Shown here: positions 7,195-42,328 of the stretch, piece by piece
How positions within the stretch are numbered: the stretch's first letter is position 1
Layout: every line of letters starts with the position of its first letter
Source of the DNA: Spirochaetota bacterium
GTDB lineage: Bacteria; Spirochaetota; Spirochaetia; DTKZ01
NCBI GenBank assembly: GCA_026418195.1
Contig: JAOABU010000152.1
Location: 1-42,809, forward strand
DNA: 42,809 nt
Reading direction: 5' to 3'
Notes under the pieces: generated by a model
Told to the model about the DNA's origin: nothing
Databases searched by the model: none
The model's input: the letters and a program-made list of their open reading frames with translations, nothing else
Position numbers and translations under genes: made by a program

Positions 7195-7223
7195 TTGACA
7201 AAGGATTGCCCACCGGTGAAACT
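7195..7223 (+). promoter_or_regulatory. Putative promoter for the DUF212-Rnf operon
   Basis: A perfect TTGACA (7195-7200), 17 bases, then a weak GAAACT (7218-7223). The ATG at 7233 follows nine bases after. This is the only promoter-like site I see before the rnf genes, so it may drive the whole 7233-16076 unit. Confidence 0.35.
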
Positions 7224-7232
7224 AACCCCGCC

Positions 7233-7712
7233 ATGCCTGGGAAACTCCTGTATGCTCTTTCCCGTTTGATAGAGAATCCTGTATTCCTCTCTACATTTTC
7301 CGCATGGTTTTCAGCCCAATTTATTAAGACCGTAGTTGAACTCTTTAGAACCAGAGGTCTGTCGGGACGAGAGATCCTGGCAAACCTATTCTGGAAGACG
7401 GGCGGTATGCCTTCTAGCCATTCTTCCTTAGTAACCGCTTTGACCACATCCGTAGGAATCATGGAAGGGCTCGATTCAGTTCTCTTTGTCGTGGTATTAT
7501 TCTATGGGATTCTCACCATTCGCGATGCCCTTGGAGTGAGACGATCGGCTGGGGTGCAAGCTCAATGGTTGAATCAATTGAGGGTCGAATTGTTTCAACG
7601 ATATGGGATTACCCTCAAACCGGTAAAAGAAGTGCATGGACATACTCCAGCGGAAGTGTTTGTGGGGGTTATGCTTGGTTTTTTCATTGCGTTGGGAATT
7701 TGCAGCTTATAG
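7233..7712 (+). CDS. DUF212 divergent PAP2-family membrane protein
   Basis: 159 aa. Membrane helices surround the motifs GGMPSSHSSLVTAL (phosphatase-like SH motif) and HGHTPAEVFVG, with RDALGVRRSAGVQA between them: the signature set of DUF212, a divergent acid phosphatase/vanadium peroxidase-related family of unknown substrate, possibly lipid or polyprenyl phosphates. ATG at 7233 is chosen over an in-frame TTG at 7206, because the TTG lies between the -35 and -10 boxes of the likely promoter. It is followed after ten bases by the 510-aa membrane protein that precedes rnfC, so it appears to be the first gene of the Rnf operon. Confidence 0.8.
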   Translation: MPGKLLYALSRLIENPVFLSTFSAWFSAQFIKTVVELFRTRGLSGREILANLFWKTGGMPSSHSSLVTALTTSVGIMEGLDSVLFVVVLFYGILTIRDALGVRRSAGVQAQWLNQLRVELFQRYGITLKPVKEVHGHTPAEVFVGVMLGFFIALGICSL

Positions 7713-7722
7713 GACCTTTTAG

Positions 7723-9255
7723 ATGCTGAAACAATTGGGGAAAAAATTCAAACAATGGGTTACCTACCATCCACTTTTAAGTATTACCCTAGGTGGATTC
7801 CTGCTTGTTGGGTTCTTGGGGACAGGAGTTTTCCTACCTGGCCCGAGTAGATGGAAAGGGTACTACCTCGTCTTACTGGATGGAAAAGCCGATTTAGCAC
7901 AAACGATTCTGCAGCTAAAAACAGCTGGTTTTCATGAAGTCCTTTCGTCTGTTACAGCTCCCGTCCTGATACAGAGTTTCTCTCACTTGGAAAGCGTATA
8001 CGTGTCTCAGCTGAGGACAAGGCTACAACCCGAGGATCCAAGATTCGATGGGTTTCTTTCCAAAATAGAAAGAGTATTTCAAACGGAATCTTCTGAAGGA
8101 CATGTAGTGTATCTCCCGATCCACTACCATCCCCTCTATGTGTTCTATCGTTTATCCACGCTTCTACCTGATAGGAAGTGCCTATTGGCGGATTGGGATT
8201 TCTACCGATCTCTGGGTTTACTCGTTTTATTCATCCTCTTTGTTTTATTCCAAACGATTCGTACCAGCACCTACCGCTGGGCAAAGATCTTAACTGGGAT
8301 TCCATGGGTTCCTGTGATTCTTCAAGGAAACTTGATGGGATTTATCCTTACGGTCTGGTGTTATCAGGTATTTAGTACTATTCTAGATTCATTATGGGGC
8401 GAGGTTGAACAATACCTGTACTATCATAAACGTACAGGTATAGATGCGATCATTTCTAAAACCTTGAACCACTTCGTTTTAATGGCAGGAGTTCTGGTCC
8501 TTATAGCTGACACGAGTGTAATTATTGGGATCGTTTTCGGGAGTGTTCTGTCTCTGGGGATAGGAATGGAACTCATCCTTGTACAGTTCTACCACCTGAA
8601 CCTAAGGGAGCACCGTATCTTCCTCCCTCTACCTATTCTCCCCTCCCATTGGAAAGAAACGAAACGAAGTGTTCTCTACGGCTCCCTAATCCTTATTTCT
8701 GTAGCTCCCCTGTTGTATATGATGCCAATCCAAGGGGGGCAACAACAGATTCCTTCCCCTCGAGGAAGTACAATTCATCGGTTTTGGGGGACCCGTTCTG
8801 CGTATCGGGATCTGTGGGTACTTCATAAGAAAGATCCATTGCCGAACTTGAGTGATTTTATGGTCCATGTAAAATACCAAAGGGAGTTCCCCTATGGAGC
8901 GACCTACGAGTTCCCATCCCCAGAAGAAGAGTTATCCTATCCACGGTTTCGGGAAGAGGGAGGAAAACTTACCTTTTGGAATGAAACCATAGTAAGATAT
9001 GATAAAACATGGTATAACCAAACTCTCCATGGTGCGAAAAAGGACAAGCTTGGGAATCTTTTCTATAGGCAGGGGGCACGAATAACGGTGTGGGAACCCA
9101 TTTTCAAGCGACTTTCGGGAACTCAGTTGTTAATTTACTATACGGTTGTTATTCTAGTGGCAACCGCCTCTTATAGGATCAGGATGCCCTTGATGCATAA
9201 ACCAATTCGATGGATCCTGGGTGTAATCACTCGGAGAAAGCAGCAAGAAGCATGA
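7723..9255 (+). CDS. Polytopic membrane protein of unknown function, coupled to rnfC
   Basis: 510 aa, not recognised. Predicted membrane helices lie near residues 17-38, 162-180, 190-218, 250-292 (two), 316-335 and 470-490. Soluble regions are 42-150 and about 337-468; the latter is rich in Tyr, Trp and charged residues. No Cys-rich cluster, nucleotide-binding or flavin motif is visible. A TAGGA Shine-Dalgarno-like site precedes the ATG. Its stop overlaps the rnfC start as ATGA at 9252-9255, which implies translational coupling and suggests an assembly partner or extra subunit of the Rnf-like complex. That role is inference from position only. Confidence 0.7.
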   Translation: MLKQLGKKFKQWVTYHPLLSITLGGFLLVGFLGTGVFLPGPSRWKGYYLVLLDGKADLAQTILQLKTAGFHEVLSSVTAPVLIQSFSHLESVYVSQLRTRLQPEDPRFDGFLSKIERVFQTESSEGHVVYLPIHYHPLYVFYRLSTLLPDRKCLLADWDFYRSLGLLVLFILFVLFQTIRTSTYRWAKILTGIPWVPVILQGNLMGFILTVWCYQVFSTILDSLWGEVEQYLYYHKRTGIDAIISKTLNHFVLMAGVLVLIADTSVIIGIVFGSVLSLGIGMELILVQFYHLNLREHRIFLPLPILPSHWKETKRSVLYGSLILISVAPLLYMMPIQGGQQQIPSPRGSTIHRFWGTRSAYRDLWVLHKKDPLPNLSDFMVHVKYQREFPYGATYEFPSPEEELSYPRFREEGGKLTFWNETIVRYDKTWYNQTLHGAKKDKLGNLFYRQGARITVWEPIFKRLSGTQLLIYYTVVILVATASYRIRMPLMHKPIRWILGVITRRKQQEA

Positions 9256-10601
9256 ATCGTATCTTTCGCTTACCAAAGGGTGGATTATACCTGCCCTCGC
9301 AGAAAGAAGTCGTAAAGGGATTCCCCATACGGAATGCGGTATTACCCCCTATCGCGGTAGTTCCTCTGGTTCAATCAGATGGAAATGAAGTGACTCGTCT
9401 AGTTCAGGTAGGAGATTTTGTTCAAGAAGGAGTATTGATTGGAAAAGGAAAGGGGAAACATTCTCTCCATATCCATGCTTCTATCCCTGGTACAGTCCAA
9501 GAAATCCGACCTATCCCCCTTCCCAGAGGCATCGAAGCACCTGCGGTATTTATCGAATTAGGAGGGGAGTTTGATCGCTTGGGTAAGAAAGAAGTGGTTT
9601 ACCCTTGGAGAAGTCTGTCCCATCGAGAGCTGAAAAATTTGCTCATTGAAAAAGGAGTGGTAGATGGAAACTTTCCCCTTGATGGACCCATCGAACTGTT
9701 GATTATCAACGGGATGGAATTGGAACCATACCTATGTTCCGAGTATCGTCTCCTAATGGAACGATCCGATGCGATACTAGAAGGAATTCGCATCCTTCAA
9801 AAATTACTCGATCCAGCACGTACTTTAGTAGTCTTGGAAGATAAAGCTCTAGATGTACAGGTCTCCTTGGGCGCTTCATTAAGGAACCAACAGATACAAG
9901 GGACAGAAGGGGCGAGTGGGAAAGAGATCGAACTAGTTTTGTTGGAAGGAAAATATCCTGCTGGTGATCCAGAGCAGCTGGTGAACATATTTTTTCACCA
10001 GAAGGTAACCCCAAAAAGAACGCTTGGAGAAATGGGGGTGACGGTGATAGATATTGCTACTACTTTTGCGGTGTATGAAGGGGTAGCATTAAGAAAACCA
10101 TTGATGGAGAGGGTTATTACGGTTAGTGGCAAGGCCATTAGGAGACCTGCAAACTTAAAAGTACGGATTGGAACACCCATTCTAGATATCATTGAAGAAT
10201 GTGGTGGTCTTACACAAACTCCTGTGAAAGTAGTGTGTGGTGGACCGTTCCGTGGCTATGGAATTTTTGATCTTCGCACACCCGTTACTAGGGAGATGTC
10301 TGGGATCCTCTTTTTAACAAAAGACGAAATCCACCCGGGAGTGAGAACTTCCTGTATCAACTGTGGCAATTGCCTTGAAGTATGTCCGGAAGGATTGCAT
10401 CCATCACGGCTCTTCAAATGGATCGATCATGGGTATTTTAATGAAGCATTGGAAGATTCTCTTTTGGGTTGTACCGAATGCGGCTGTTGTGCGTTTGTTT
10501 GTCCTTCTCGTATTCCCCTTGTACAAGGATTTCAGGTAGGTAAGGTTCATGCAGCAAGAGTATTAAATGGAAGGAGTAGCAAGGATCAGCCCAATGGATG
10601 A
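9252..10601 (+). CDS. rnfC: RnfC-like subunit with altered NADH/FMN loop
   Basis: 449 aa. ATG at 9252 overlaps the previous stop and begins at the conserved N-terminal part; an upstream in-frame extension to 9210 lies inside the previous gene. The barrel-sandwich region is recognisable (HIHASIPGTVQEI). Two complete 4Fe-4S motifs follow: C368-C371-C374-C378 and C407-C410-C413-C417, the second running into PSRIPLVQGF as in RnfC. In the usual protein a glycine-rich GGAGFPT loop follows the AGIVG segment; here residues 135-146 read GVVDGNFPLDGP and the ECEPY motif is ELEPY (156-160). The typical NADH/FMN entry site therefore seems lost. Family assignment is firm; electron donor is not. Confidence 0.9.
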   Translation: MNRIFRLPKGGLYLPSQKEVVKGFPIRNAVLPPIAVVPLVQSDGNEVTRLVQVGDFVQEGVLIGKGKGKHSLHIHASIPGTVQEIRPIPLPRGIEAPAVFIELGGEFDRLGKKEVVYPWRSLSHRELKNLLIEKGVVDGNFPLDGPIELLIINGMELEPYLCSEYRLLMERSDAILEGIRILQKLLDPARTLVVLEDKALDVQVSLGASLRNQQIQGTEGASGKEIELVLLEGKYPAGDPEQLVNIFFHQKVTPKRTLGEMGVTVIDIATTFAVYEGVALRKPLMERVITVSGKAIRRPANLKVRIGTPILDIIEECGGLTQTPVKVVCGGPFRGYGIFDLRTPVTREMSGILFLTKDEIHPGVRTSCINCGNCLEVCPEGLHPSRLFKWIDHGYFNEALEDSLLGCTECGCCAFVCPSRIPLVQGFQVGKVHAARVLNGRSSKDQPNG

Positions 10602-11685
10602 AACATTGATCATTACTGGAACTCCTCAAATATTTAACCGAACAACAACTGCTCGAATGATCTGGACAGTGTGTGTATGGTTAGCACCTGCTGCTCTGTG
10701 GGGAGTCTATCTGTATGGAATGGGGGCATTGAAAATCCTTCTTGTTTCTATTCTAACCTCGATAGGAATTGAGGGAGGGATTGGACTTTTGCGAAAGGAA
10801 TCGACTCTCCAGGATGGGAGTGCATGTTTGACCGGCTTATTGATAGGCATGCTGTTACCTCCAACGGTTCCTCTGTTCATTCCCATCTTGGCGGTAGTAT
10901 TTGCACTCTTGGTGGTGAAGTGGTCTTTTGGAGGATTAGGAAAGAACTGGATGAATCCAGCCCTCGGTGGCTGGGCCTTTGTCTGGCTTTCCTTTCCGGA
11001 TCAAGTTCATACTTGGTTATTCCCTGCGATGGTTCGGGGAGTCGATGCAATTACTTCTAGCACCCCTCTGATCCTTTTGAAAAACAAACTGTTTCTTGAA
11101 GGTGTAAAAGGCAGTTCTCCCATGGAGATCCTTGCCAGTGCAGGGTTCCCTAGAAGCCTCATGGATGGCTCTTGGACCGACTGGTTGAATGGGAAAATTC
11201 TAGAACCGTTGGGGATCCTACTTCCTCCAGGATACATAGATCTTTTCTTTGGGTTTACCCCCGGAGCGATCGGGGAAACTTCTGCTTTTCTCCTTTTAAT
11301 AGGCACGATCGCTCTAATTGGTAAAGGGATTCTCCCATGGGAAGTACCGTTGAGTGTATTTACTGTGTTTGGGACCCTGGTTTTTCTTTTTGGTGGTTTC
11401 CCCTATGGATTGGGATGGGGAACAGGAGATGTCTTGTTTCAATTCTTCACGGGAGGATTCCTTTTAGGAGCCTTCTATATGGCTACTGATCTGGTGACTT
11501 CTCCATTGACAAGGTGGGGAGGGATAGTATACGGGGCAGGGATAGGGGGAATCACTTTCCTTATTCGTATGTTTGGTGGGGCTGGAGAGGGGATCGGATT
11601 TGCTATTCTTTTCATGAATATATTTGTGCCCATATTGAATCGATTCCTTACACCAAAACCAAGGGTTAAGGATAAAAGGGTATGA
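10594..11685 (+). CDS. rnfD: RnfD, membrane subunit with covalent FMN site
   Basis: 363 aa. ATG at 10594 overlaps rnfC by eight bases and has an AAGGAT site upstream; longer in-frame starts lie inside rnfC. Multiple helices are present, with the conserved GGLGKNWMNPALGGWAF segment (about 113-129) and the flavinylation motif DAITSSTPL, Thr157 being the expected FMN attachment residue (phosphoester, made by ApbE, not in this window). It is paralogous to NqrB encoded at 41408-42328. Unlike RnfA, RnfE, RnfB and RnfC in this operon, the cofactor site looks intact. Stop overlaps rnfG as ATGA. Confidence 0.92.
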   Translation: MDETLIITGTPQIFNRTTTARMIWTVCVWLAPAALWGVYLYGMGALKILLVSILTSIGIEGGIGLLRKESTLQDGSACLTGLLIGMLLPPTVPLFIPILAVVFALLVVKWSFGGLGKNWMNPALGGWAFVWLSFPDQVHTWLFPAMVRGVDAITSSTPLILLKNKLFLEGVKGSSPMEILASAGFPRSLMDGSWTDWLNGKILEPLGILLPPGYIDLFFGFTPGAIGETSAFLLLIGTIALIGKGILPWEVPLSVFTVFGTLVFLFGGFPYGLGWGTGDVLFQFFTGGFLLGAFYMATDLVTSPLTRWGGIVYGAGIGGITFLIRMFGGAGEGIGFAILFMNIFVPILNRFLTPKPRVKDKRV

Positions 11686-12260
11686 ATCGATACCTTCCAA
11701 TCTGGGGTAGAGTAACGTTTCTTTGTCTAGTATCCGCTTTTCTATTAGGTTTAGCAAATTGGGGTGTTTCATACCAGATTCATAGACAAGAGAAGCAAGT
11801 CTTCGAATCTCTATTAAAAGGATGGAAACAAGATGTGCGCCTAGGTAAAGATCTAACCATAGGAGTAGAACGATCGGTACCCTCCATGAGGTTTGTAAAG
11901 AGCTACATCCCTATACGTGGCGTTGAAGGAAAAACGGAGCTTTTTATGGTACGGATAATTCCAGGAGGATACGTAGGTCATTATCAACTTTTGGTAGCAT
12001 ACACCAAGGAGGGAAAATTGGTGGGATATTTGGTGGAAAGAGAGATAGTTCCTACGATTTCTACCTATTCTAAACCATCCCCGGAGTTATATAAAATTTT
12101 CTTGGAAAAGGGCAGATGGACATATAGACCTACCGGAATTGATACCCTGCAACGGGAAGAAATCGAAGCTATCAGTGGGGCAACTAATACCTTCTTATCG
12201 CTATTAGAAGCCTTACAGGAAGGATCCTCTTTTGTCAAAGGGGGGGAGAAACGGCCATGA
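11682..12260 (+). CDS. rnfG: RnfG, periplasmic FMN-carrying subunit
   Basis: 192 aa: one N-terminal membrane anchor (about 10-30) and an extracytoplasmic FMN-binding domain. EAISGATNT places the flavin-accepting Thr at 168. The ETPGLG motif usual in RnfG/NqrC is replaced by EIVPTIS around 121-127, so the domain is diverged although the attachment site remains. Gene overlaps both neighbours with ATGA junctions (11682-11685 and 12257-12260), consistent with a translationally coupled complex. Confidence 0.9.
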   Translation: MNRYLPIWGRVTFLCLVSAFLLGLANWGVSYQIHRQEKQVFESLLKGWKQDVRLGKDLTIGVERSVPSMRFVKSYIPIRGVEGKTELFMVRIIPGGYVGHYQLLVAYTKEGKLVGYLVEREIVPTISTYSKPSPELYKIFLEKGRWTYRPTGIDTLQREEIEAISGATNTFLSLLEALQEGSSFVKGGEKRP

Positions 12261-12883
12261 GCTTCACGGAGCGAATGATTGCTAAGAATCCAGTCTTTGG
12301 TTTGGGTTTAGGGGTTCTTCCTGTCCTAGCGTTATCCTATCGGTTCGATACCGCTTGGATAACGGGATTTCTGAGTCTTATGCTTCTTCTGTTGGGGAAG
12401 GGGACTGTACGTATGGTGAAGGAACTGTTTCCTTCATCGATCCTATGGTATGTACGTATGATGGTGCTAAGCTTCTGGGTAGCTTTAACAGAAATCATCT
12501 TCGAGGCGTATATCCCGCAGGCAAGGGATTCCTTTGGTATCTACCTTTCCCTCTTAACTGTGAATACCTTTCTCCTAGAGGCCATTTTCCCTACGGAACA
12601 GGTTGAGCATAACGAATGGTGTGGAACTCTGCTATTAGGATTAGGATACCTTTGTACTATTGGGATTATGGGTGCTCTTCGAGAGATTGTTAGTTCTGGA
12701 ACCCTAACAATCGTTAAGTTACCAGGTTGGACATTGAGGTATGCCATTCTCAACAAACCCTTACTTCCTCTTCGATTTTTCGCCCTCCCAGCAGGAGGAT
12801 TCATCCTTTATGGGTACTTCAAAGCAGGATTCCGGATGGTGGCGATTCACAGCTATAGAAAGAGGACCGCGGAGGAACCATGA
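12257..12883 (+). CDS. rnfE: RnfE-like membrane subunit lacking both cluster cysteines
   Basis: 208 aa, six helices of the RnfE/NqrD fold, recognisable from KNPVFGLGLGVLPVLALS at the N-terminus and ALREIVSSGTL later. In Rnf/Nqr this subunit supplies two cysteines to an intramembrane [2Fe-2S] cluster, in LGxC and TNC motifs. Here the first position is Leu21 (GVLPVLAL) and the second is Thr104 (VNTFLLE). Both are therefore missing. The NqrD encoded at 40195-40800 keeps both. ATGA overlaps on both sides. Confidence 0.88.
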   Translation: MSFTERMIAKNPVFGLGLGVLPVLALSYRFDTAWITGFLSLMLLLLGKGTVRMVKELFPSSILWYVRMMVLSFWVALTEIIFEAYIPQARDSFGIYLSLLTVNTFLLEAIFPTEQVEHNEWCGTLLLGLGYLCTIGIMGALREIVSSGTLTIVKLPGWTLRYAILNKPLLPLRFFALPAGGFILYGYFKAGFRMVAIHSYRKRTAEEP

Positions 12884-13455
12884 GTTATATGGGTCTACTT
12901 TTCACTTTTGTGTTTGCGCAGAATGTGCTGCTATACTACTTTTTTGGCATTGATTCTGTGGAGGACATGAAGGATGATCGTTCCCGATTCCTGATTCAGG
13001 AAGGGTTGGTGCTTATAGGTGTTTGTTCATGTTCTGGAATCATGATCCGGTCCATTCACCAGTTCATCCTTCTTCCTTTAGGTTTGACGTATCTAAAGAC
13101 TGTGACTGCCGTGTTACTCATCCTTGTGGTAGGTAAAATCACAGATTCTATCCTGAAGCGCTTCAAGGTGTCCCTCAATGTATGGAGACTCATGGTGAAC
13201 TCACTAGTGGTGGGTATTTCCTTACTTGCCGTCCATGGGAAGTACTCATTAGGTGAAAGCTTCATGGCAGGGCTTTCTGCGGGATTAGGGTATCTCTTTG
13301 CTGTGTACTTGTTAGGGGTTTTGCAGGAACAATTCAAGAGGGAATGGATACCTAGATCTTTACAGGGTGTCCCGATCCTTGCAATTTCCGCGGGTTTGAT
13401 GGCGATGGCCTTTCTGGCCATCGATGCGGCTCTGTTAAAACGGATATTTGGGTAA
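12880..13455 (+). CDS. rnfA: RnfA-like membrane subunit lacking both cluster cysteines
   Basis: 191 aa, six helices of the RnfA/NqrE fold (FAQNVLLYYFFGI; LPLGLTYLKT; SAGLGYLFAVYLLGVLQE; LMAMAFLAID). The usual FLGxC and TNC cysteines are replaced by Asp25 (FFGIDS) and Ser108 (MVNSLVV). Two other cysteines, C49 and C51 (GVCSCSG), sit in the second helix and could in principle offer alternative ligands. The paralogous NqrE in this window keeps C29 and C117. Order rnfC-D-G-E-A-B is the common clostridial-type order. Confidence 0.88.
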   Translation: MSYMGLLFTFVFAQNVLLYYFFGIDSVEDMKDDRSRFLIQEGLVLIGVCSCSGIMIRSIHQFILLPLGLTYLKTVTAVLLILVVGKITDSILKRFKVSLNVWRLMVNSLVVGISLLAVHGKYSLGESFMAGLSAGLGYLFAVYLLGVLQEQFKREWIPRSLQGVPILAISAGLMAMAFLAIDAALLKRIFG

Positions 13456-13459
13456 TACT

Positions 13460-14131
13460 GTGTTAGATTTCGTTTTGAATATCCTATATGCTTTGGTGGC
13501 TTTAGGGGTAGTGGGAGGTATTTTGGGTCTATTACTTTCCCTCTCAGAGACAGAGGATGGAGAAAAAATATCACCTCCCCTGGAAAACCTAACCTGTTTG
13601 CCTTTACACTTTAAGGATGGATCCTACCCTCAGGTCCATTGCAAAGGAGGAGCGGGTAAAGCTCGATATGTCTTCATGTACAAAGGAATCAATGATTGTA
13701 CTGCCTTGTACCGGTTATTCAAAGGAAACAAACTCTGTAAATATGCGTGTCTGGAGATGGGGAGTTGTGTTCGCGTTTGTCCTAACGGAGCAATTCATCG
13801 AGAAGAGGGTGGAACCATGGTGGTGGATCCTGAAGTATGTATTGCCTGCGGTTCTTGTATCTCGGTTTGCCCCACGGGGGTGCTTAGGTACATCCCGAGA
13901 ACTGCAGATTACTATGTAGCCTGTAATTCCATAGAGGATGGCCCGAATACTACCGCAACCTGCACGGTGGGGTGTATAGGATGTCGCATCTGTGAACGAC
14001 GATCAGTGGATGGTGGCTTCATTATTGAACGTCACCTAGCGAAGATAAATTATTCTAAGCAGGGGGAACGGCATCATGCAGCAGAGGATTGTCCCACAAA
14101 ATGTATCGTCAAACATGAGTTCAATTCGTAG
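13460..14131 (+). CDS. rnfB: RnfB-like ferredoxin subunit, shortened
   Basis: 223 aa from GTG at 13460, which begins the expected N-terminal helix; TTG at 13448 inside rnfA is an alternative. After the helix (1-28) and a linker, the protein goes directly to the YKGINDC segment. The usual intervening domain of about 60-65 residues with its CGxCGxxxC cluster is absent. Two complete 4Fe-4S sets follow: C93-C97-C103-C107 and C127-C130-C133-C137. A third motif, C168-C172-C175-C178, lacks the usual final CysPro, and of the last cluster only C211 and C215 remain. Electron entry is probably altered. Last rnf gene of the operon. Confidence 0.88.
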   Translation: MLDFVLNILYALVALGVVGGILGLLLSLSETEDGEKISPPLENLTCLPLHFKDGSYPQVHCKGGAGKARYVFMYKGINDCTALYRLFKGNKLCKYACLEMGSCVRVCPNGAIHREEGGTMVVDPEVCIACGSCISVCPTGVLRYIPRTADYYVACNSIEDGPNTTATCTVGCIGCRICERRSVDGGFIIERHLAKINYSKQGERHHAAEDCPTKCIVKHEFNS

Positions 14132-14144
14132 AGGCAGGAATTGA

Positions 14145-16076
14145 ATGCCTGGAGTTCAATTGATTTTTGGAACGTATAATACTACCCCTTTAGGAGGATC
14201 CGAGTCGTTTCGAGAGGAACAATACCAGCAGTGTATCAAACCCTTTCTTAGTACCTTGTACCTTTTCCCTGAAATTCCTACCGTTCTATACTATTCCGGC
14301 ATTCTCTTACAATGGCTAGAAAAAAAACATCCCGAGTTTCTGGATGTACTAGGTGAAATGGTTTCCCGTAAACAGGTTGAACTATTAGGAGGAGCCTTCT
14401 ATGATCCAATTCTTACCATACTGCCTCGCTCAGATGCATTAGGGCAGATAGAACTATTCACAACGTATCTTAGAAAGAAGTTTGGTAAACGACCTCGAGG
14501 GGCTTGGATCCCAGAACTGGAATGGGAGCCTTGGTTGGCTTCTACTTTGCGAACTTGCGGAATGGATTATACCTTCCTTGGGGAATACCACTTCAATGCT
14601 GCGGGAGTCATGAAACGGTATGTACCCTACCTAACCGAGGACCAAGGGAAAACCATCTACGTATTCCCGATATTCGAACAAATCTCCGATTCCCTGGAAA
14701 AAACATCACCAAAAGAAGTAATACGCGCCATTCTAACTCATCAATCGTCTTCAGAAGATAGACTTGTTACTCTCCTTGTTCCCGGTCATTACTGGACCAA
14801 CAAAAAAATCGAAGAGTTCTTTCTAGAGCTTAGAAAAAATGAGCAAATCCGGTGCACCCAACCCAATCAATATGTACGTTCAACCCATGTAGGATATAAA
14901 ACCTATTTCCCCTGTGGATCTAGAGAACAGAGAATGGTGGAAGCCCTGCCTGCTGAAAGGGCCAAAGAATATAAGGCATTGAAATCACGCCTGGGTACCC
15001 TAAATGGAGAAATGCTCTTCGGGGGAGGTTTTTTTCGCCAGCTTCTTGCTCGATATCCGGAAAGTAATCTGTTGTATGCCAAGATGCAATATACCCATCT
15101 TCTTGTGAATGGTGTACGGAGGGATAAATACCGCAAAATCGCAGCCCGTGAGGAACTCTGGAAAGGACAACATGGACAAGCATATTGGTCAGGATCCGTT
15201 TCAGGGGGGAACCTAATTCGGAGGCAGGCATATAAATCTCTCATTACCGCTGAACGGATTACGCGGGAGAAAGGAGTCTTCATCCCATCCTTGGTAGTGA
15301 TGGATTTTGACATGGATGGAAAAGATGAGTTTCTGTACCAAGGTCACGACTTGAACGCATATGTTCACACGAATGGAGGAGCTATCTTCGAGTTGGACAA
15401 TCTTAATAAGGCTTGGAATTATGTAGATTGTTCGATAAGGAAAATTGGGGGCAAGGAGGTGCTTCGCAAAATCTTTCTGGATCATTTCTTCCCTATCGGC
15501 ACTGAGCCTCAGGAACTGTTCTCTCCTAAACAGGGGGATTGGGGAGATTTTATAAATCAATCCTACACGGTGGTGAAGTGTGACAAGGAGCGCAGTGAGC
15601 TTGTGCTGGAGCGAAGGAGTACAGTAAGACAAGCGAAGGAACAGATTCCCGTACGGTTAGTAAAAAAATACATTTTCAAGGGGAACACCATCAACCTCTA
15701 CTATTCCTTGACCAATACAAGTTCGGCATCTTTACGGATGTGTTTTGGTGTGGAGGTGAATTTTTCTTTTGCTGATAGAGAACAGGTTCGGGTTCTATGG
15801 CAGGAAGGGAAAAGCAGGAGAGAAGTACATCATACACCAAGCGAGCTATCGAATGTAAGCGAGATCTCTTTCGAAGACTCTTCCCATGGAACACAAATTG
15901 TCGTATCTACCTTGGAACCTTGTTCCGCATGGGATTTGTCCAACGAATGGAAGGTGTCTTCCGCTGATGAAAATGGCCTGGATCTTGGCTCCTGTTTCGT
16001 TTCATATTGGGCTTTGGATCTACCTTCTGGAGCGGTTTGGGAAAATAGGATCACCCTGAAAATGGGAACTCTGTAG
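14145..16076 (+). CDS. GH57-like protein related to 4-alpha-glucanotransferase, partly degenerate active site
   Basis: 643 aa, collinear with the 4-alpha-glucanotransferase branch of GH57 (about 660 aa): catalytic barrel, helical domain (DUF1925-like) and C-terminal beta-sandwich (DUF1926-like; FLDHFFPIGTEP, WGDFINQSY). The nucleophile motif is present as WIPELEW with Glu124. The HNHQP motif near the N-terminus reads YNTTP (11-15), and the DDGEKFG motif carrying the acid/base Asp is replaced by VPGHYWTN (about 212-219) with a deletion. It may be inactive on glucan or use another residue. It follows rnfB by 13 bases with an AGGA site, so is in the Rnf operon. Cytoplasmic: no signal peptide. 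Confidence 0.8.
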   Translation: MPGVQLIFGTYNTTPLGGSESFREEQYQQCIKPFLSTLYLFPEIPTVLYYSGILLQWLEKKHPEFLDVLGEMVSRKQVELLGGAFYDPILTILPRSDALGQIELFTTYLRKKFGKRPRGAWIPELEWEPWLASTLRTCGMDYTFLGEYHFNAAGVMKRYVPYLTEDQGKTIYVFPIFEQISDSLEKTSPKEVIRAILTHQSSSEDRLVTLLVPGHYWTNKKIEEFFLELRKNEQIRCTQPNQYVRSTHVGYKTYFPCGSREQRMVEALPAERAKEYKALKSRLGTLNGEMLFGGGFFRQLLARYPESNLLYAKMQYTHLLVNGVRRDKYRKIAAREELWKGQHGQAYWSGSVSGGNLIRRQAYKSLITAERITREKGVFIPSLVVMDFDMDGKDEFLYQGHDLNAYVHTNGGAIFELDNLNKAWNYVDCSIRKIGGKEVLRKIFLDHFFPIGTEPQELFSPKQGDWGDFINQSYTVVKCDKERSELVLERRSTVRQAKEQIPVRLVKKYIFKGNTINLYYSLTNTSSASLRMCFGVEVNFSFADREQVRVLWQEGKSRREVHHTPSELSNVSEISFEDSSHGTQIVVSTLEPCSAWDLSNEWKVSSADENGLDLGSCFVSYWALDLPSGAVWENRITLKMGTL

Positions 16077-16090
16077 AGCCTACCATCCCT

Positions 16091-17350
16091 TCAACGAGAT
16101 GACATGGTTTGAAGTACAGCATCTATCCATGGTTGGGTTTCACTGAAGTAATACCGCGTTGCGAGTAGAAAGTCCAAGACAGATTCCCGATACTGAGCTA
16201 AAAAGAATTTAGCTTGTCCCCGGTAGAAGTATACTTGTGATCGGGCTTCCTCACTTAGGGGAAGGCGGGATAGAAGGTCTAACTGCAAGATCACCTCTTT
16301 CCATTCTCTGTTCTTGAAAGGACCTTTCAGCACTGCCTGCAGCATCTGTTCCTCTTTCTGGCCGGTATCTCCTTTATTAAAGGGGAGGATGGTAGGGGAT
16401 GGAAGGGGAGATTGAGGTTCAGGAAGAGGGGCTACCAGATCCTGTAAAACTTTTAACGTAGAAGTGGGGATGGGTATCGCAGGAGGGACACCATACTCAC
16501 TAGGGCTTGGGAGTGGATTTCCGGATTCAAAGCTCTGTTTTAATAGATAGAACGGGAGGGGTATGGGGCGTATGTAGGTTCCGTTCAGGGGAGGAAGAAT
16601 AGATATAGCAGGAAGGGCAGTGTTAGGAAGAGGGATCTCTACGTAGGTGCTAGTGACATTGTTCCCTTTTTCTAATCGAGGAAGTTTCATCTCCAATAGT
16701 TTAGCATCTACTACCGCATAATAGTAGGGTACACCCGGAACAGGATAATCTGATACCTCTGTTTCACTGCTAGGGAATCGTTTTACTTCGGTAGCAGCGG
16801 TTAGCTGCTCTACTGAAAGAATCGGAACGGTACTCCGGTATAGAATGAGATCTCTGTCTCCTCGGGAAGCCACAAATCGCACGAGGATATGATCTTTCAC
16901 GACTTCGGCTTTGATCGAGGAGATGCGAGCGGCCCGCTCTTCTTCCGGAGCAACGGAATCCAATCGAACGGGTGTCACTGTCTTGTTTCGAAAGGGGATC
17001 AGTTCTTGGTAGGTAGTACCCGTTTCACTCTTGATTAATACTGCATAGTAGTAAGAACCTACTTGATCGGGGATGTCGATGAAATACCCTGTACCATAGG
17101 GAACGATCCCTACAAGAGTGGCTTTTGGCAAGGTTTCTAGGGTAATTTCTACTGGGCTTCTATATACTAACAACATCCCGGGGGTATCTGGAGAATCTTC
17201 CCAGGTGATTTTTATCTGAGAGCCTCGTACTCCAACTTTGATTTGCGAGACATACGGGGATGGTATGTCTGCTAGGAGCGGTACAGGGCTAGTACATAGT
17301 ATGGTGAATAGCACAAGTATGGTTTTCACCCTATTGTTGATCTTTCCCAT
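16091..17350 (-). CDS. Secreted protein with fibronectin-like repeats, unknown function
   Basis: 419 aa, not recognised. The N-terminus is a classical signal peptide (basic start, hydrophobic 11-25, cleavage likely after LLA near residue 27). Two similar segments, about 35-120 and 145-225, each end in a Tyr-Tyr-Ala-Val strand (YYYAVL, YYYAVVD), suggesting a tandem fibronectin-III-like fold. A Pro-rich linker follows (about 250-330), and the last 80 residues are helical, TPR-like. Probably periplasmic or cell-surface. Convergent with the GH57 gene and divergent from prfB. Confidence 0.65.
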   Translation of the reverse strand: MGKINNRVKTILVLFTILCTSPVPLLADIPSPYVSQIKVGVRGSQIKITWEDSPDTPGMLLVYRSPVEITLETLPKATLVGIVPYGTGYFIDIPDQVGSYYYAVLIKSETGTTYQELIPFRNKTVTPVRLDSVAPEEERAARISSIKAEVVKDHILVRFVASRGDRDLILYRSTVPILSVEQLTAATEVKRFPSSETEVSDYPVPGVPYYYAVVDAKLLEMKLPRLEKGNNVTSTYVEIPLPNTALPAISILPPLNGTYIRPIPLPFYLLKQSFESGNPLPSPSEYGVPPAIPIPTSTLKVLQDLVAPLPEPQSPLPSPTILPFNKGDTGQKEEQMLQAVLKGPFKNREWKEVILQLDLLSRLPLSEEARSQVYFYRGQAKFFLAQYRESVLDFLLATRYYFSETQPWIDAVLQTMSSR

Positions 17351-38473: not shown

Positions 38474-39595
38474 TTATGCGAACTTATCGAAGTAAATTTT
38501 ATCTGGTGGCACCTGGAACTTTTTCATTACGGCGATACAAGCATCTAGCATACCAGGGCTTCCGCAGAGGTACCCTTCCATTGGCTTGGTGCGATCGATT
38601 TGGGTAGTAAGGTACTTTTCCAAAACCTGTGTGATAAGGCCCGTCTCACCTTTCCAGTCGTCTTCGGGTTGAGGTTCAGAAAGAGCTGCAATGAAACGAA
38701 AGGAAGGCCACTGTTTTTCTATCTGTTTTAATTCTTCCAGATAGAAGAGGTCTTTTTTGGTGCGAGCTCCGAAGAAATACCAAACCTCCCGATCAGTTTT
38801 CCCCTTTTCTAGCATGTCATAGAAAATGGATTTAAAGGGAGCCATCCCAGAACCTCCCGCTACGCAAAGCATAGTGGCTCCTGTTTCCCGAATATGGAAC
38901 TCTCCAAAAGGACCGGTAACGGTAACCGTTTCCCCTTCCTTCATTCGAGTATGAACGTAGGTAGTGACGATACCCCCAGGTACCAAACGAATGAGTAGCT
39001 CTACGTGGTTGCGGTCCGAAGGGCGGGAAGACATGGAGTAGGCTCGTTCGGTTGGCTCTTTGATTTTATCGTACGGAGGGACCATGAGTTGAACGTACTG
39101 ACCTGCCAGAAAATCGATCTCCTTCGGCTCCTCCAACCGAATATACACTTCCTTGATGTCATGGGTAACGTTCCGGATCCGCTCCACTGTTCCTCTATAC
39201 CGTTTGATGTTGAACAGGGCATCGGGAATCTGGATGGAAATATCCTTCTTGAGCTTGATCTGGCAGGAGAGCCTGATATTTTCGGTTGTCTCCTCCTTTG
39301 TCATGTAGGGCAGTTCAGTGGGAAGGTGAGGTCCCACATCGGATGTGACCTTCACTTTACAAGCTCCACAGCTTCCCCTTCCTCCACAGGCGGAAGGAAC
39401 ATAGATTCCCACTTCAGCTAGGGAAAATAGGAGGGGAGCCCCGCCCTTCACTTTCAGCTGTCGTTTACCTTGGTTGATGTCGATGGTAACTTCACCGTAA
39501 TTGTTCACAATTTTATCGGTTATAGAGATCAGGAGGGCCAAGATGGCTGTAATGGCACCTACTGCAGATGAAGCAAGCAATACTGGAACGAACAT
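38474..39595 (-). CDS. nqrF: NqrF, NADH dehydrogenase subunit of Na+-NQR
   Basis: 373 aa. N-terminal helix (about 3-25), a plant-type [2Fe-2S] ferredoxin domain with C70, C76, C79 and C111, then a ferredoxin-reductase domain with RAYSMSS for FAD and GGSGMAPFKSI plus YLCGSPGMLDACI for NADH. This subunit takes electrons from NADH at the cytoplasmic face. It is the feature that separates this cluster from Rnf. AGGAGG precedes the ATG, nine bases after nqrE. Confidence 0.93.
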   Translation of the reverse strand: MFVPVLLASSAVGAITAILALLISITDKIVNNYGEVTIDINQGKRQLKVKGGAPLLFSLAEVGIYVPSACGGRGSCGACKVKVTSDVGPHLPTELPYMTKEETTENIRLSCQIKLKKDISIQIPDALFNIKRYRGTVERIRNVTHDIKEVYIRLEEPKEIDFLAGQYVQLMVPPYDKIKEPTERAYSMSSRPSDRNHVELLIRLVPGGIVTTYVHTRMKEGETVTVTGPFGEFHIRETGATMLCVAGGSGMAPFKSIFYDMLEKGKTDREVWYFFGARTKKDLFYLEELKQIEKQWPSFRFIAALSEPQPEDDWKGETGLITQVLEKYLTTQIDRTKPMEGYLCGSPGMLDACIAVMKKFQVPPDKIYFDKFA

Positions 39596-39604
39596 GGGAA
39601 CCTC

Positions 39605-40198
39605 CTATTGAACCTTCAACATACCCGAGAAGCCGATGAAAGCCATGGCCATGAATCCAATGGTGATCAGGGTTATGCCGGGACCCTTTAACCCGGCTGG
39701 GACAGGAGCTCTGTCTACTTTCTTTCGAATAGCCGCTAAAGAAGCGATTGCCAACCACCACCCTAACCCAGAACCTAGGCTGAAAATGGCCGATTGAAGG
39801 AAGGTGTAGTTTCTGATTTCGATGAATAACACTGCACCCAAGATTGCGCAGTTCACCGTGATGAGGGGTAAAAAGATCCCCAGTGTCATATAGAGGGCAG
39901 GGGACAAACGATCGATTACCATTTCCAAGATCTGCACTACCGCGGCAATCACGATGATGAACACGATGAACCGAAGGTAGTACAGTCCTAAAGGAAACAG
40001 GATATAATGGAGAACGGCCCAGTTCACTACTCCTGTAATGGTGAGTACTACAGTTACGGCTAACCCAAGACCGTTGGAAGAATCAAAATCCTTAGAGATC
40101 GAAATGAAGGAGCACATTCCAAGGAAGTTGGCTAAAAGGATGTTACTGGTAAAGATGGAGGCGAAAAAGAGGCTCAAAGGGGCAATTTGCGGACTCAT
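39605..40198 (-). CDS. nqrE: NqrE, membrane subunit
   Basis: 197 aa, six helices. The [2Fe-2S] cysteines are both present: C29 in NFLGMCSF and C117 in ITVNCAILG. GSGLGWWLAIASLAAIRKK and ITIGFMAMAFIGFSG are typical NqrE segments. Together with NqrD it holds the intramembrane cluster. ATGA overlap with nqrD. Serves as the intact comparison for RnfA at 12880-13455. Confidence 0.94.
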   Translation of the reverse strand: MSPQIAPLSLFFASIFTSNILLANFLGMCSFISISKDFDSSNGLGLAVTVVLTITGVVNWAVLHYILFPLGLYYLRFIVFIIVIAAVVQILEMVIDRLSPALYMTLGIFLPLITVNCAILGAVLFIEIRNYTFLQSAIFSLGSGLGWWLAIASLAAIRKKVDRAPVPAGLKGPGITLITIGFMAMAFIGFSGMLKVQ

Positions 40199-40800
40199 GC
40201 TTTCCCTCCTGTCATACGATTCTTAGCGATCCAGAGAAGGATGGCCACTAAAAAGAAGGCGCTGGGAGCCATTACCATGATGGTCCACTGGGGGAACCAC
40301 GCAGGGGCTACAGGGAATCCAAAGAGGGTTCCAAACCCGAGGAATTCCCGTACGAAGGCAATGGCCATCAAGACCCACATATACCCAATACCGGAGGTAA
40401 GTCCATCCCAGAATGCGGGGATGGGAGGATTGCTTTGGGCGAAGGCTTCAGCTCTCCCCATTAAAATGCAATTAGTAATGATCAGACCCACATAGGGACC
40501 TAAACTCTTTGAAATTTCAGGTAGGAACGCTCTTAGTAAAATATCTACAATGATTACGTAGAAAGAGATGATCAACACCTGCACGATCATCCGTACTTTC
40601 CGAGGTATCCAGTCTTTCATGAAAGCGATGGTCAAGTTGGAGAATGCCGCGGTAAATGTAACACCCAGAGTCATGATGAGGGTGTTGGTAAGTAGGTTGG
40701 TTACGGCCAGCGTCGAGCAGATCCCAAGGATCTGAATGAAAATTGGGTTATTGAACCAGAGGTTTTCCCTCGATATTTTCTTTAAATCTTTAGCTGTCAT
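40195..40800 (-). CDS. nqrD: NqrD, membrane subunit
   Basis: 201 aa, six helices. Both cluster cysteines are kept: C28 in LGICSTLAVT and C111 in IITNCILMGRAEAF. FVREFLGFGTLFG and LAPSAFFL-like MAPSAFFLVAILLW are conserved. ATGA overlaps with nqrC and nqrE. It is the intact comparison for RnfE at 12257-12883. Confidence 0.94.
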   Translation of the reverse strand: MTAKDLKKISRENLWFNNPIFIQILGICSTLAVTNLLTNTLIMTLGVTFTAAFSNLTIAFMKDWIPRKVRMIVQVLIISFYVIIVDILLRAFLPEISKSLGPYVGLIITNCILMGRAEAFAQSNPPIPAFWDGLTSGIGYMWVLMAIAFVREFLGFGTLFGFPVAPAWFPQWTIMVMAPSAFFLVAILLWIAKNRMTGGKA

Positions 40801-41411
40801 CTAGAGCCTCCCAGGATCTTTTTAAACACGGTAAGTTCTCCATTCAAAATGGTATCCATCGCTTGACTGGTACGGCTTGCACCAGTGATTCCGTCCGCTA
40901 TTCCTTCCTCTTTGTTGGCTTTGCCGCTTCCAGCCTCCGCACCGAAGGTTACATGGATTCTGCCATTCTTCACTTTCAAGCCTCGAAACTGGTCTTTGAA
41001 CCAGGGATCGGCCACTCGACCTCCTAAACCAGGAGTTTCGTTGTGGCTCACGATCTGGATACCCACGATCTGGGAAACCTGTTCGTCCACCGATAGGATC
41101 CCCGTGATCGTTCCCCAGAGACCGCTTCCACTGAATTCCTTCGCATAGATCGTTTTTCCACCTTGAGTGCTCTTGTAGAAACGAACTCCTTCTTTATCCA
41201 GGATTTCAATGGCTTTGTAGAGGGTATTTACTTCTTCATCGGTGCGGAAGGGAATAGCCATAGCTGAGAGAATCGCTTTCTGTCTGGCTAGCTCTTGGTT
41301 TCGCTGCACGATCCCCGAGGTCCCTTCATTTGCCAATGCCAGGAGAAACACGAAGAGGAAGGTAATGATGAAGCTGAACACTACCGTATAGAGAATCCCA
41401 TCTTTCCTCAT
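40797..41411 (-). CDS. nqrC: NqrC, FMN-carrying periplasmic subunit
   Basis: 204 aa. One N-terminal helix (about 7-27) and an FMN domain with HNETPGLGG (123-131) and the attachment motif DGITGASRTS (173-182). The flavin-accepting position is Ser179 where Thr is usual; ApbE motifs allow either, so flavinylation is still expected. ATGA overlaps on both sides. Confidence 0.92.
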   Translation of the reverse strand: MRKDGILYTVVFSFIITFLFVFLLALANEGTSGIVQRNQELARQKAILSAMAIPFRTDEEVNTLYKAIEILDKEGVRFYKSTQGGKTIYAKEFSGSGLWGTITGILSVDEQVSQIVGIQIVSHNETPGLGGRVADPWFKDQFRGLKVKNGRIHVTFGAEAGSGKANKEEGIADGITGASRTSQAMDTILNGELTVFKKILGGSR

Positions 41412-42328
41412 AGAGATGCCTCCTTTGGTGCAGAAGAGGTTGTCTTAGGGGTAGTGAGTTCATCGATTAAGGACGCAAAAGTATTTCCTAAAAGGAGAGC
41501 AAAGCTCGTCCCTTCTGGAAAGGCAGAGTACAATCGTAGAATGATCGAAAGGATTCCGATCAAAAGTCCATAGATCCATTGGGAAAGGTCCCGTTTAGGA
41601 GCACTCACTGGATCGGTTGCCATAAAAACGGCTACGAATAGGACACTCCCACTGAGCATGGAGTATAGGGTAGGGAAGGCCCCTTTTACCCCCAAGAGAT
41701 CTAAGATCGCCGAAGTCCCGATGGCTCCTATAACCGTACCCAACAGGGTTCGATAGGAAGCGGTTTTCGTAATTATTAGGTAGATAGCTCCTAAGAGAAT
41801 CAAGAGGATGGAGCCTTCTCCAATAGAACCCCCTTTAAATCCCAGGAACAGATCCTGAAGATTTAGGGAAGACATGTCCCCTGAACGAAGAATCCCCAAC
41901 GGTGTAGCGGTGCTCACTGCATCTGCATGAGTACCGAAAGCCCCCGGAACCATCCAGGAAGCGGCCAGGATATTGGGAAAGGTGATATAAACAAACAACC
42001 TCCCCGTAATGGCTGGGTTGAAGATGTTCCTCCCAAATCCCCCGTACACCTCTTTCCCCATGAATACAGCAAAAATGATTCCTACCCCGACGACCCAAAG
42101 AGGGGTTTTGGGGGGGAGCGAAAGGGCAAAGATCGTACAGGTTACCAAAACCGCTTCGCTGACCTTCTTATTTCGACCTTTTTCTACGATATATTCCGTT
42201 GCGACCCCTAAGATCAGGGATACCAGGAGGACTGCAACTGGCCTATATCCGTATAAATAAATGGAAAAGAGAAATAAAGGGAGGAGTGCGTAGAGGACCC
42301 TCCGCATAATGAGTTGTTTCTGGAACAC
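41408..42328 (-). CDS. nqrB: NqrB, membrane subunit with covalent FMN, short form
   Basis: 306 aa from GTG at 42328, chosen because AAGGAGGG lies four bases upstream. GGFGRNIFNPAITGR (96-110), flavin motif DAVSTATPL with Thr142, and VFMATDPVSAP near the C-terminus identify NqrB. Typical NqrB is about 400 residues with an N-terminal extension; here the protein begins at the first core helix, an RnfD-like length. No nqrA is found upstream, where a UxaB-type gene ends. First gene of nqrB-C-D-E-F. Confidence 0.9.
   Translation of the reverse strand: MFQKQLIMRRVLYALLPLFLFSIYLYGYRPVAVLLVSLILGVATEYIVEKGRNKKVSEAVLVTCTIFALSLPPKTPLWVVGVGIIFAVFMGKEVYGGFGRNIFNPAITGRLFVYITFPNILAASWMVPGAFGTHADAVSTATPLGILRSGDMSSLNLQDLFLGFKGGSIGEGSILLILLGAIYLIITKTASYRTLLGTVIGAIGTSAILDLLGVKGAFPTLYSMLSGSVLFVAVFMATDPVSAPKRDLSQWIYGLLIGILSIILRLYSAFPEGTSFALLLGNTFASLIDELTTPKTTSSAPKEASL

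Follow-up and report, generated by a model that had tools for sequence, protein, structure and literature searches.

Rnf and Nqr are known as redox pumps, and many anaerobes depend on Rnf to build an ion gradient from a flow of electrons. What does an Rnf complex do once the electron path through its membrane part is gone? The question is raised by an operon in a 42,809-nucleotide stretch of DNA (hereafter the window) from a Spirochaetota bacterium (GenBank assembly GCA_026418195.1, contig JAOABU010000152.1, positions 1 to 42,809), in which all six subunits RnfABCDGE are encoded together. The genes for a DUF212 protein, a 510-residue membrane protein that we call U510, RnfC-D-G-E-A-B and a GH57-like protein form a single tightly coupled operon on the + strand (7206-16076), every gene lying where an original prediction from the sequence had placed it. 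We argue below that the ferredoxin-to-NAD+ circuit has probably been removed from this complex, the membrane complex itself being kept at the ancestral rnf locus, and that comparable changes have taken place in several lineages of the Spirochaetia, including Borrelia and Treponema and with them the agents of Lyme disease and syphilis.

Redox sites lost and kept

Losses of redox sites were judged against solved Rnf chains and against a complete Rnf encoded on contig C69 of the same genome, and the selective loss described in the original prediction stands against both. All four cysteine ligands of the membrane [2Fe-2S] cluster are replaced (RnfA Asp25 and Ser108, RnfE Leu21 and Thr104), the two RnfA residues occupying the alignment columns of Cys25 and Cys113. 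In Clostridium tetanomorphum the cluster cysteines, RnfA Cys25 and Cys113 and RnfE Cys26 and Cys109, are termed invariant (PMC9588780). By comparison with the RnfB of the complete copy, the FdI domain with its five cysteines is cleanly deleted between the transmembrane helix and FdII. This domain is believed to move back and forth, linking RnfA/E with the clusters on the cytoplasmic side. Finally, the glycine-rich loop of RnfC, which binds flavin mononucleotide (FMN) and NAD, as known from RnfC and NuoF, is shortened from GxGGAxFP to GVVDGNFP.

Other sites are retained, including both 4Fe-4S motifs of RnfC (CINCGNCLEVC and CTECGCCAFVC) and the FdII motifs of RnfB. The threonine motifs predicted to carry flavin in RnfD (Thr166) and RnfG (Thr168) are also kept, as had been claimed, the RnfG motif EAISGATNT having Glu where Asp is usual; the RnfD residue had been given as Thr157, which counts from the ATG at 10594.

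The published electron path runs from RnfB FdI through RnfA/E, RnfG, RnfD and RnfC to NAD+ (PMC12174285), the step from cytoplasm to periplasm being that from FdI over the RnfA/E cluster to RnfG (PMC12174285, PMC9588780). Because FdI, the RnfA/E ligands and the RnfC loop are lost, both this step and the exit to NAD+ would be missing, and there are strong grounds to conclude that the complex should not run the classical ferredoxin:NAD+ pump reaction. The proposed route from a cytoplasmic donor through RnfB/C to extracytoplasmic flavins also fails as it was formulated, since the FdI-RnfA/E-RnfG limb is gone and the flavins would be reachable only by running the RnfC-RnfD limb backwards. We rejected an assembly artefact on the ground that related genomes, assembled separately, share these losses.

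The classical roles are covered elsewhere in the genome, by the complete Rnf on C69 and by a Na+-Nqr operon (NqrF, E, D, C, B) on the - strand of the window at 38474-42328, with NqrF at 38474-39595. The suggestion that Nqr took over ion pumping is thus right in that Nqr is present and incomplete in that a full Rnf is available too. NqrA must lie past the end of the contig. We dropped the idea that derived loci require a second Rnf, as in several derived genomes this copy is the sole one, and many intact genomes do hold a second.

Selection and history of the locus

The ratio of nonsynonymous to synonymous substitution rates (dN/dS) was estimated pairwise by the Nei-Gojobori method with a script of our own. 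Between the window and a genome of the same genus it is 0.035 for DUF212, 0.137 for U510, 0.079 for RnfC, 0.062 for RnfD and, from an 82-codon piece, 0.13 for RnfG; in the same pair the values are 0.01-0.08 for the complete Rnf paralogues, 0.02-0.06 for Nqr and 0.006 for rpoB. Purifying selection is therefore about threefold weaker on RnfC and RnfG than on the complete paralogues and about equal on RnfD. Other pairs lie in similar territory, at 0.08-0.16 in Borrelia, 0.06-0.16 in genomes resembling T. denticola and 0.07-0.29 in those of family f34; a value of 1.8 for RnfG in G006/G007 proved to be an artefact of wrong-frame open reading frames. The measured genes are under purifying selection, which speaks against decay of the locus.

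Of the 297 Spirochaetia genomes, 216 encode U510, which is thus present in 83 of 112 genera; it was not found in any listed genome outside this class. The view of the locus as a conserved, functional derivative is borne out by purifying selection in pairs of relatives and by U510 travelling with the rnf locus; what we observed in this class is conservation and dN/dS well below 1, rather than the absence of conservation or the relaxed selection that had been named as speaking against it. The phenomenon is conserved and class-wide, and its parts come from known families plus one new one, U510.

Among spirochaetes the same locus spans a range, with an intact Rnf at one end and, at the other, a form in which no cofactor site can be recognised. 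DUF212 is its conserved first gene across many Spirochaetia, and in many genomes U510 opens an intact rnf operon, followed by the GH57-like gene and often by prfB. Gene order with GH57 and prfB is conserved in intact and derived loci alike. The same rnf-GH57-prfB order is also found in lineages that have no U510, with an intact Rnf in the 10 syntenic loci read, so that an intact rnf operon at this position is likely the ancestral spirochaete state and the derived loci would be its positional orthologues.

We scored 77 loci for cysteine columns, RnfC loop, RnfB FdI and flavin sites, as far as contigs reach, and placed 53 of the scored genomes on an rpoB tree. The distribution of intact and derived states requires at least five changes, or eight if loci that lost rnf genes or RnfB are counted, under a parsimony that permits regain (one-way loss would raise the number), on a quick tree with one long branch (G022), from hand scoring and with some contigs holding a partial operon. 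Derived groups are f1 (the family of the window), the f8 group, f34, G055, f14, Borrelia with f13, f7, G026, and the treponemes with f42 and G093. As judged from these sequences, the electron path has been lost more than once in Spirochaetia. The expectation that relatives share the same losses is contradicted: there is no fixed set, and many loci at the same position are intact. Even within f1 the cysteines vary, RnfE Cys23 and RnfA Cys113 being kept in G005-G007, and loss would therefore have been stepwise. In the limited literature searched, we found no report of an Rnf that repeatedly lost its membrane electron path yet kept the complex.

Two loci stand apart. One (L095, G097) is missing RnfB, with the RnfC loop and every RnfA/E cysteine in place, its sister genome having the full set; its state may possibly represent a first step of loss. 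In the other (L040, G076) the rnf operon is otherwise intact, RnfE being followed by RnfB with no RnfA found in between.

Borrelia and T. pallidum have reduced genomes with no second rnf copy. In Borrelia turicatae 91E135 (G027) the order is DUF212, U510 with a lipobox, a 768-residue RnfC-RnfD fusion that has no Fe-S motifs (L036:9823-12126), an RnfA-like protein at the detection limit, and prfB. The RnfC part of the fusion weakly matches NqrA_N, and neither an FMN_bind (RnfG-type) protein nor ApbE was found when searched for in this genome. No cofactor motif remains, yet the locus is under purifying selection. From gene order and published product names these genes appear to be BB0070-BB0073, which would make bb0071 the U510 orthologue; transposon mutants in bb0071 were not recovered from larval ticks (PMC6516651).

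The T. pallidum locus TP0147-0153 (G082) is also derived. Its RnfD match at 173952-174851 spans the published position of TP0151, 174174 (PMC7162541), and the products of TP0153 and TP0154 are those that the order predicts, DUF212 and pseudouridine synthase (PMC4403809). The locus encodes DUF212, an RnfC that keeps two Fe-S motifs, E and A subunits that have diverged very far, an RnfD with no flavin loop and a GH57-like protein; U510 and a recognisable RnfB were not found in it, and no PF02508 member scores above threshold anywhere in the genome, in which ApbE and FMN_bind proteins are present elsewhere. Treponemes in general have lost the RnfD flavin loop, and most have no recognisable full RnfB. 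An RNF pump in T. pallidum was reportedly proposed in a paper of 2015. The locus has been described as a noncanonical, flavodoxin-linked RNF pump (PMC7512555, PMC11371664). Its sequence, which offers no cluster ligands, NAD loop or RnfD flavin loop, does not fit a classical RNF pump; models of T. pallidum energy metabolism that assume a flavin-driven RNF pump are therefore affected and need re-examination (PMC7512555, PMC10194888, PMC11371664).

A proposed membrane scaffold without its circuit

Common to all derived lineages are the RnfC barrel, RnfD, RnfA and mostly RnfE, together with U510 except in T. pallidum and f7. Since this scaffold is what they share, a second function and not the redox circuit would be what is selected. 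We propose that the Rnf scaffold has been recruited to a task outside the ferredoxin-NAD circuit, probably together with U510, a reading that we hold to have about an even chance of being right. RnfD, the RnfA/E fold and the RnfC barrel would serve as a membrane platform; the two predicted extracytoplasmic domains of U510 could act on the envelope, and the hourglass formed by RnfA/E may have kept the ability to switch, or to conduct an ion, with no electrons involved. Of 32 derived loci, 21 have D, E, K, R, N or Q at RnfA position 25, and with S included the residue there is polar in 26; helix I positions 21-24 are almost never polar in these loci. The site of the former RnfA/E cluster might thus hold an ion or make a polar contact; position 26 is also often polar, however, and the helix may therefore simply end there. 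Put more broadly, and with somewhat less than even confidence, Rnf may have become a non-redox envelope machine, mostly with U510, in a number of spirochaete lineages, Borrelia and Treponema among them, and that of Borrelia would be the first known Rnf-family complex free of redox centres.

Several observations weigh against this proposal. Three genomes, G035 (L045), G047 (L073) and G069 (L082), keep U510 and the GH57-like gene with the rnf genes of the locus gone or reduced to a stub, and T. pallidum retains rnf-like genes with no U510, so that the two are separable; what ties U510 to Rnf is gene order and co-retention, from which a partnership may be read. An AlphaFold model of U510 made with three sequences has a mean pLDDT (predicted local distance difference test) of 36.6 and offers no fold that would back a mechanism. 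Moreover, the dN/dS values do not extend to RnfE, RnfA and RnfB of the window, which no contig of a close relative spans.

The main rival, which we consider unlikely, is a one-way exporter, in which electrons would enter at RnfB FdII or RnfC and pass by the riboflavin/FMN of RnfD and the FMN of RnfG to a periplasmic acceptor, with no return limb. The window family does keep a limb through which electrons may move one way to the periplasm, that is the 4Fe-4S motifs of RnfC, the RnfD threonine and, where covered, the RnfG motif (G000, G003, G005), and ApbE is encoded in the window genome. However, the FMN/NAD entry of RnfC is lost, the RnfB and RnfC clusters lie at least 25 Å apart in a solved Rnf (PMC9588780), and the operon encodes no dedicated acceptor. 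Other derived lineages that have no flavin sites still retain the locus: in treponemes and Borrelia even the RnfC-RnfD-RnfG limb is gone, so that electron transfer to flavins is excluded as a function shared by every derived locus.

A redundant copy slowly drifting toward loss, with complete Rnf and Nqr elsewhere, would explain why evolution is faster in the derived genes than in their complete paralogues (RnfC dN/dS 0.079 against 0.023), why the identity of RnfA/E to an intact copy falls to 0.2-0.35 in most derived loci, and why three genomes lost the rnf genes of the locus. Nevertheless, we regard such drift as improbable, as the reading frames are uninterrupted and coupled, all valid comparisons put dN/dS well under 1, and the derived state lasts through whole families, including the single-copy reduced genomes of Borrelia and T. 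pallidum. Least probable of all is a working Rnf-type pump with an altered RnfA/E metal site and another donor, as assigned to T. pallidum in the flavodoxin-linked proposal (PMC7512555, PMC11371664): the polar residues at RnfA position 25 could bind an ion, but the window operon has lost the FdI shuttle and the NAD loop along with all four cysteines, and the treponeme and Borrelia losses described above remove further parts of the path.

The case separates Rnf scaffold from chemistry, and opens a way to ask what the RnfA/E and RnfD folds can do without electrons. It also brings forward U510 as a new class-wide protein whose knock-out is possible in culturable spirochaetes, and would supply a family and neighbours for BB0070-0073, one of them important for survival in ticks.

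Parts of the operon and comparison with known systems

The genes of the operon are listed in Table 1. Stops and starts overlap as ATGA at the U510/RnfC, RnfD/RnfG, RnfG/RnfE and RnfE/RnfA junctions; at RnfC/RnfD and RnfA/RnfB the overlap is 8 bases, and there are gaps of 10 bases between DUF212 and U510 and of 13 bases between RnfB and GH57. In NCBIfam, RnfC and RnfD score above their cut-offs and RnfA, E, G and B far below theirs. When 29 U510 sequences were used for profile searches of Pfam and PDB, scattered weak matches were the only result; DPRxDP and DYxxHxAYQ are conserved motifs of the family. On the - strand, 16094-17350 encodes a 419-residue protein with a weak Ig-like match, which is conserved at this place, flanked by GH57-like and prfB, in many Spirochaetia (27 open reading frames).

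Table 1. Genes of the rnf-like operon, in window coordinates
Feature	Coordinates	Strand	Evidence and remarks
DUF212 (divergent PAP2-family) membrane protein	7206..7712	+	PF02681 E=5e-41; ATG at 7233 possible
U510, 510-residue membrane protein, two predicted extracytoplasmic domains	7723..9255	+	no family match
RnfC-like	9210..10601, likely start 9252 (ATGA overlap)	+	TIGR01945 331.8 bits
RnfD-like	10567..11685, likely start 10594	+	PF03116 E=5.5e-89; putative flavin Thr166 (TSSTPL)
RnfG-like	11682..12260	+	TIGR01947 24 bits, below cut-off; EAISGATNT (Thr168)
RnfE-like	12257..12883	+	PF02508 E=2.7e-23; Leu21, Thr104 replace cluster cysteines
RnfA-like	12880..13455	+	PF02508 E=1.3e-15; Asp25, Ser108 replace cluster cysteines
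RnfB-like, TTG start	13448..14131	+	FdI deleted, FdII clusters kept, FdIII reduced
GH57 / 4-alpha-glucanotransferase-like	14145..16076	+	PF03065, PF09095; aligned to 1k1w

The GH57-like protein matches the catalytic domain of the GH57 4-alpha-glucanotransferase 1k1w (E=1.7e-61), whose catalytic residues we take to be a nucleophile Glu and an acid/base Asp. It shares the Glu at the nucleophile position and is missing the acid/base loop DDGEKFG, and no signal peptide was seen in it. The damage noted in the original prediction thus concerns the acid/base loop and spares the nucleophile, and it is not tied to the Rnf losses: most Spirochaetia copies have lost one or both catalytic residues, beside intact and derived Rnf alike. 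With selection on it strong (dN/dS 0.05-0.065), it is probably a non-catalytic binding protein, and its link to Rnf is one of neighbourhood alone.

With Rnf (RnfABCDGE) the window operon has in common six homologous subunits, the C-D-G-E-A-B order and the position of intact spirochaete rnf loci; it differs in having no RnfA/E cysteines, RnfB FdI or RnfC FMN/NAD loop, and in the addition of U510. The putative RNF of T. pallidum (rnfD = TP0151) occupies the same locus, the DUF212/pseudouridine synthase order being matched by TP0153/TP0154, but has gone further than the window in also losing U510, the RnfD flavin loop and a recognisable RnfB. Na+-NQR, for its part, keeps the NqrD/E cluster and NqrF, whereas the derived locus has neither, no NqrF-like gene being found in 7206-16076. 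Its NqrA, regarded as an RnfC whose cofactors have been lost (PMC4014512), is nonetheless a precedent for the conversion of an RnfC into a structural subunit with no cofactor.

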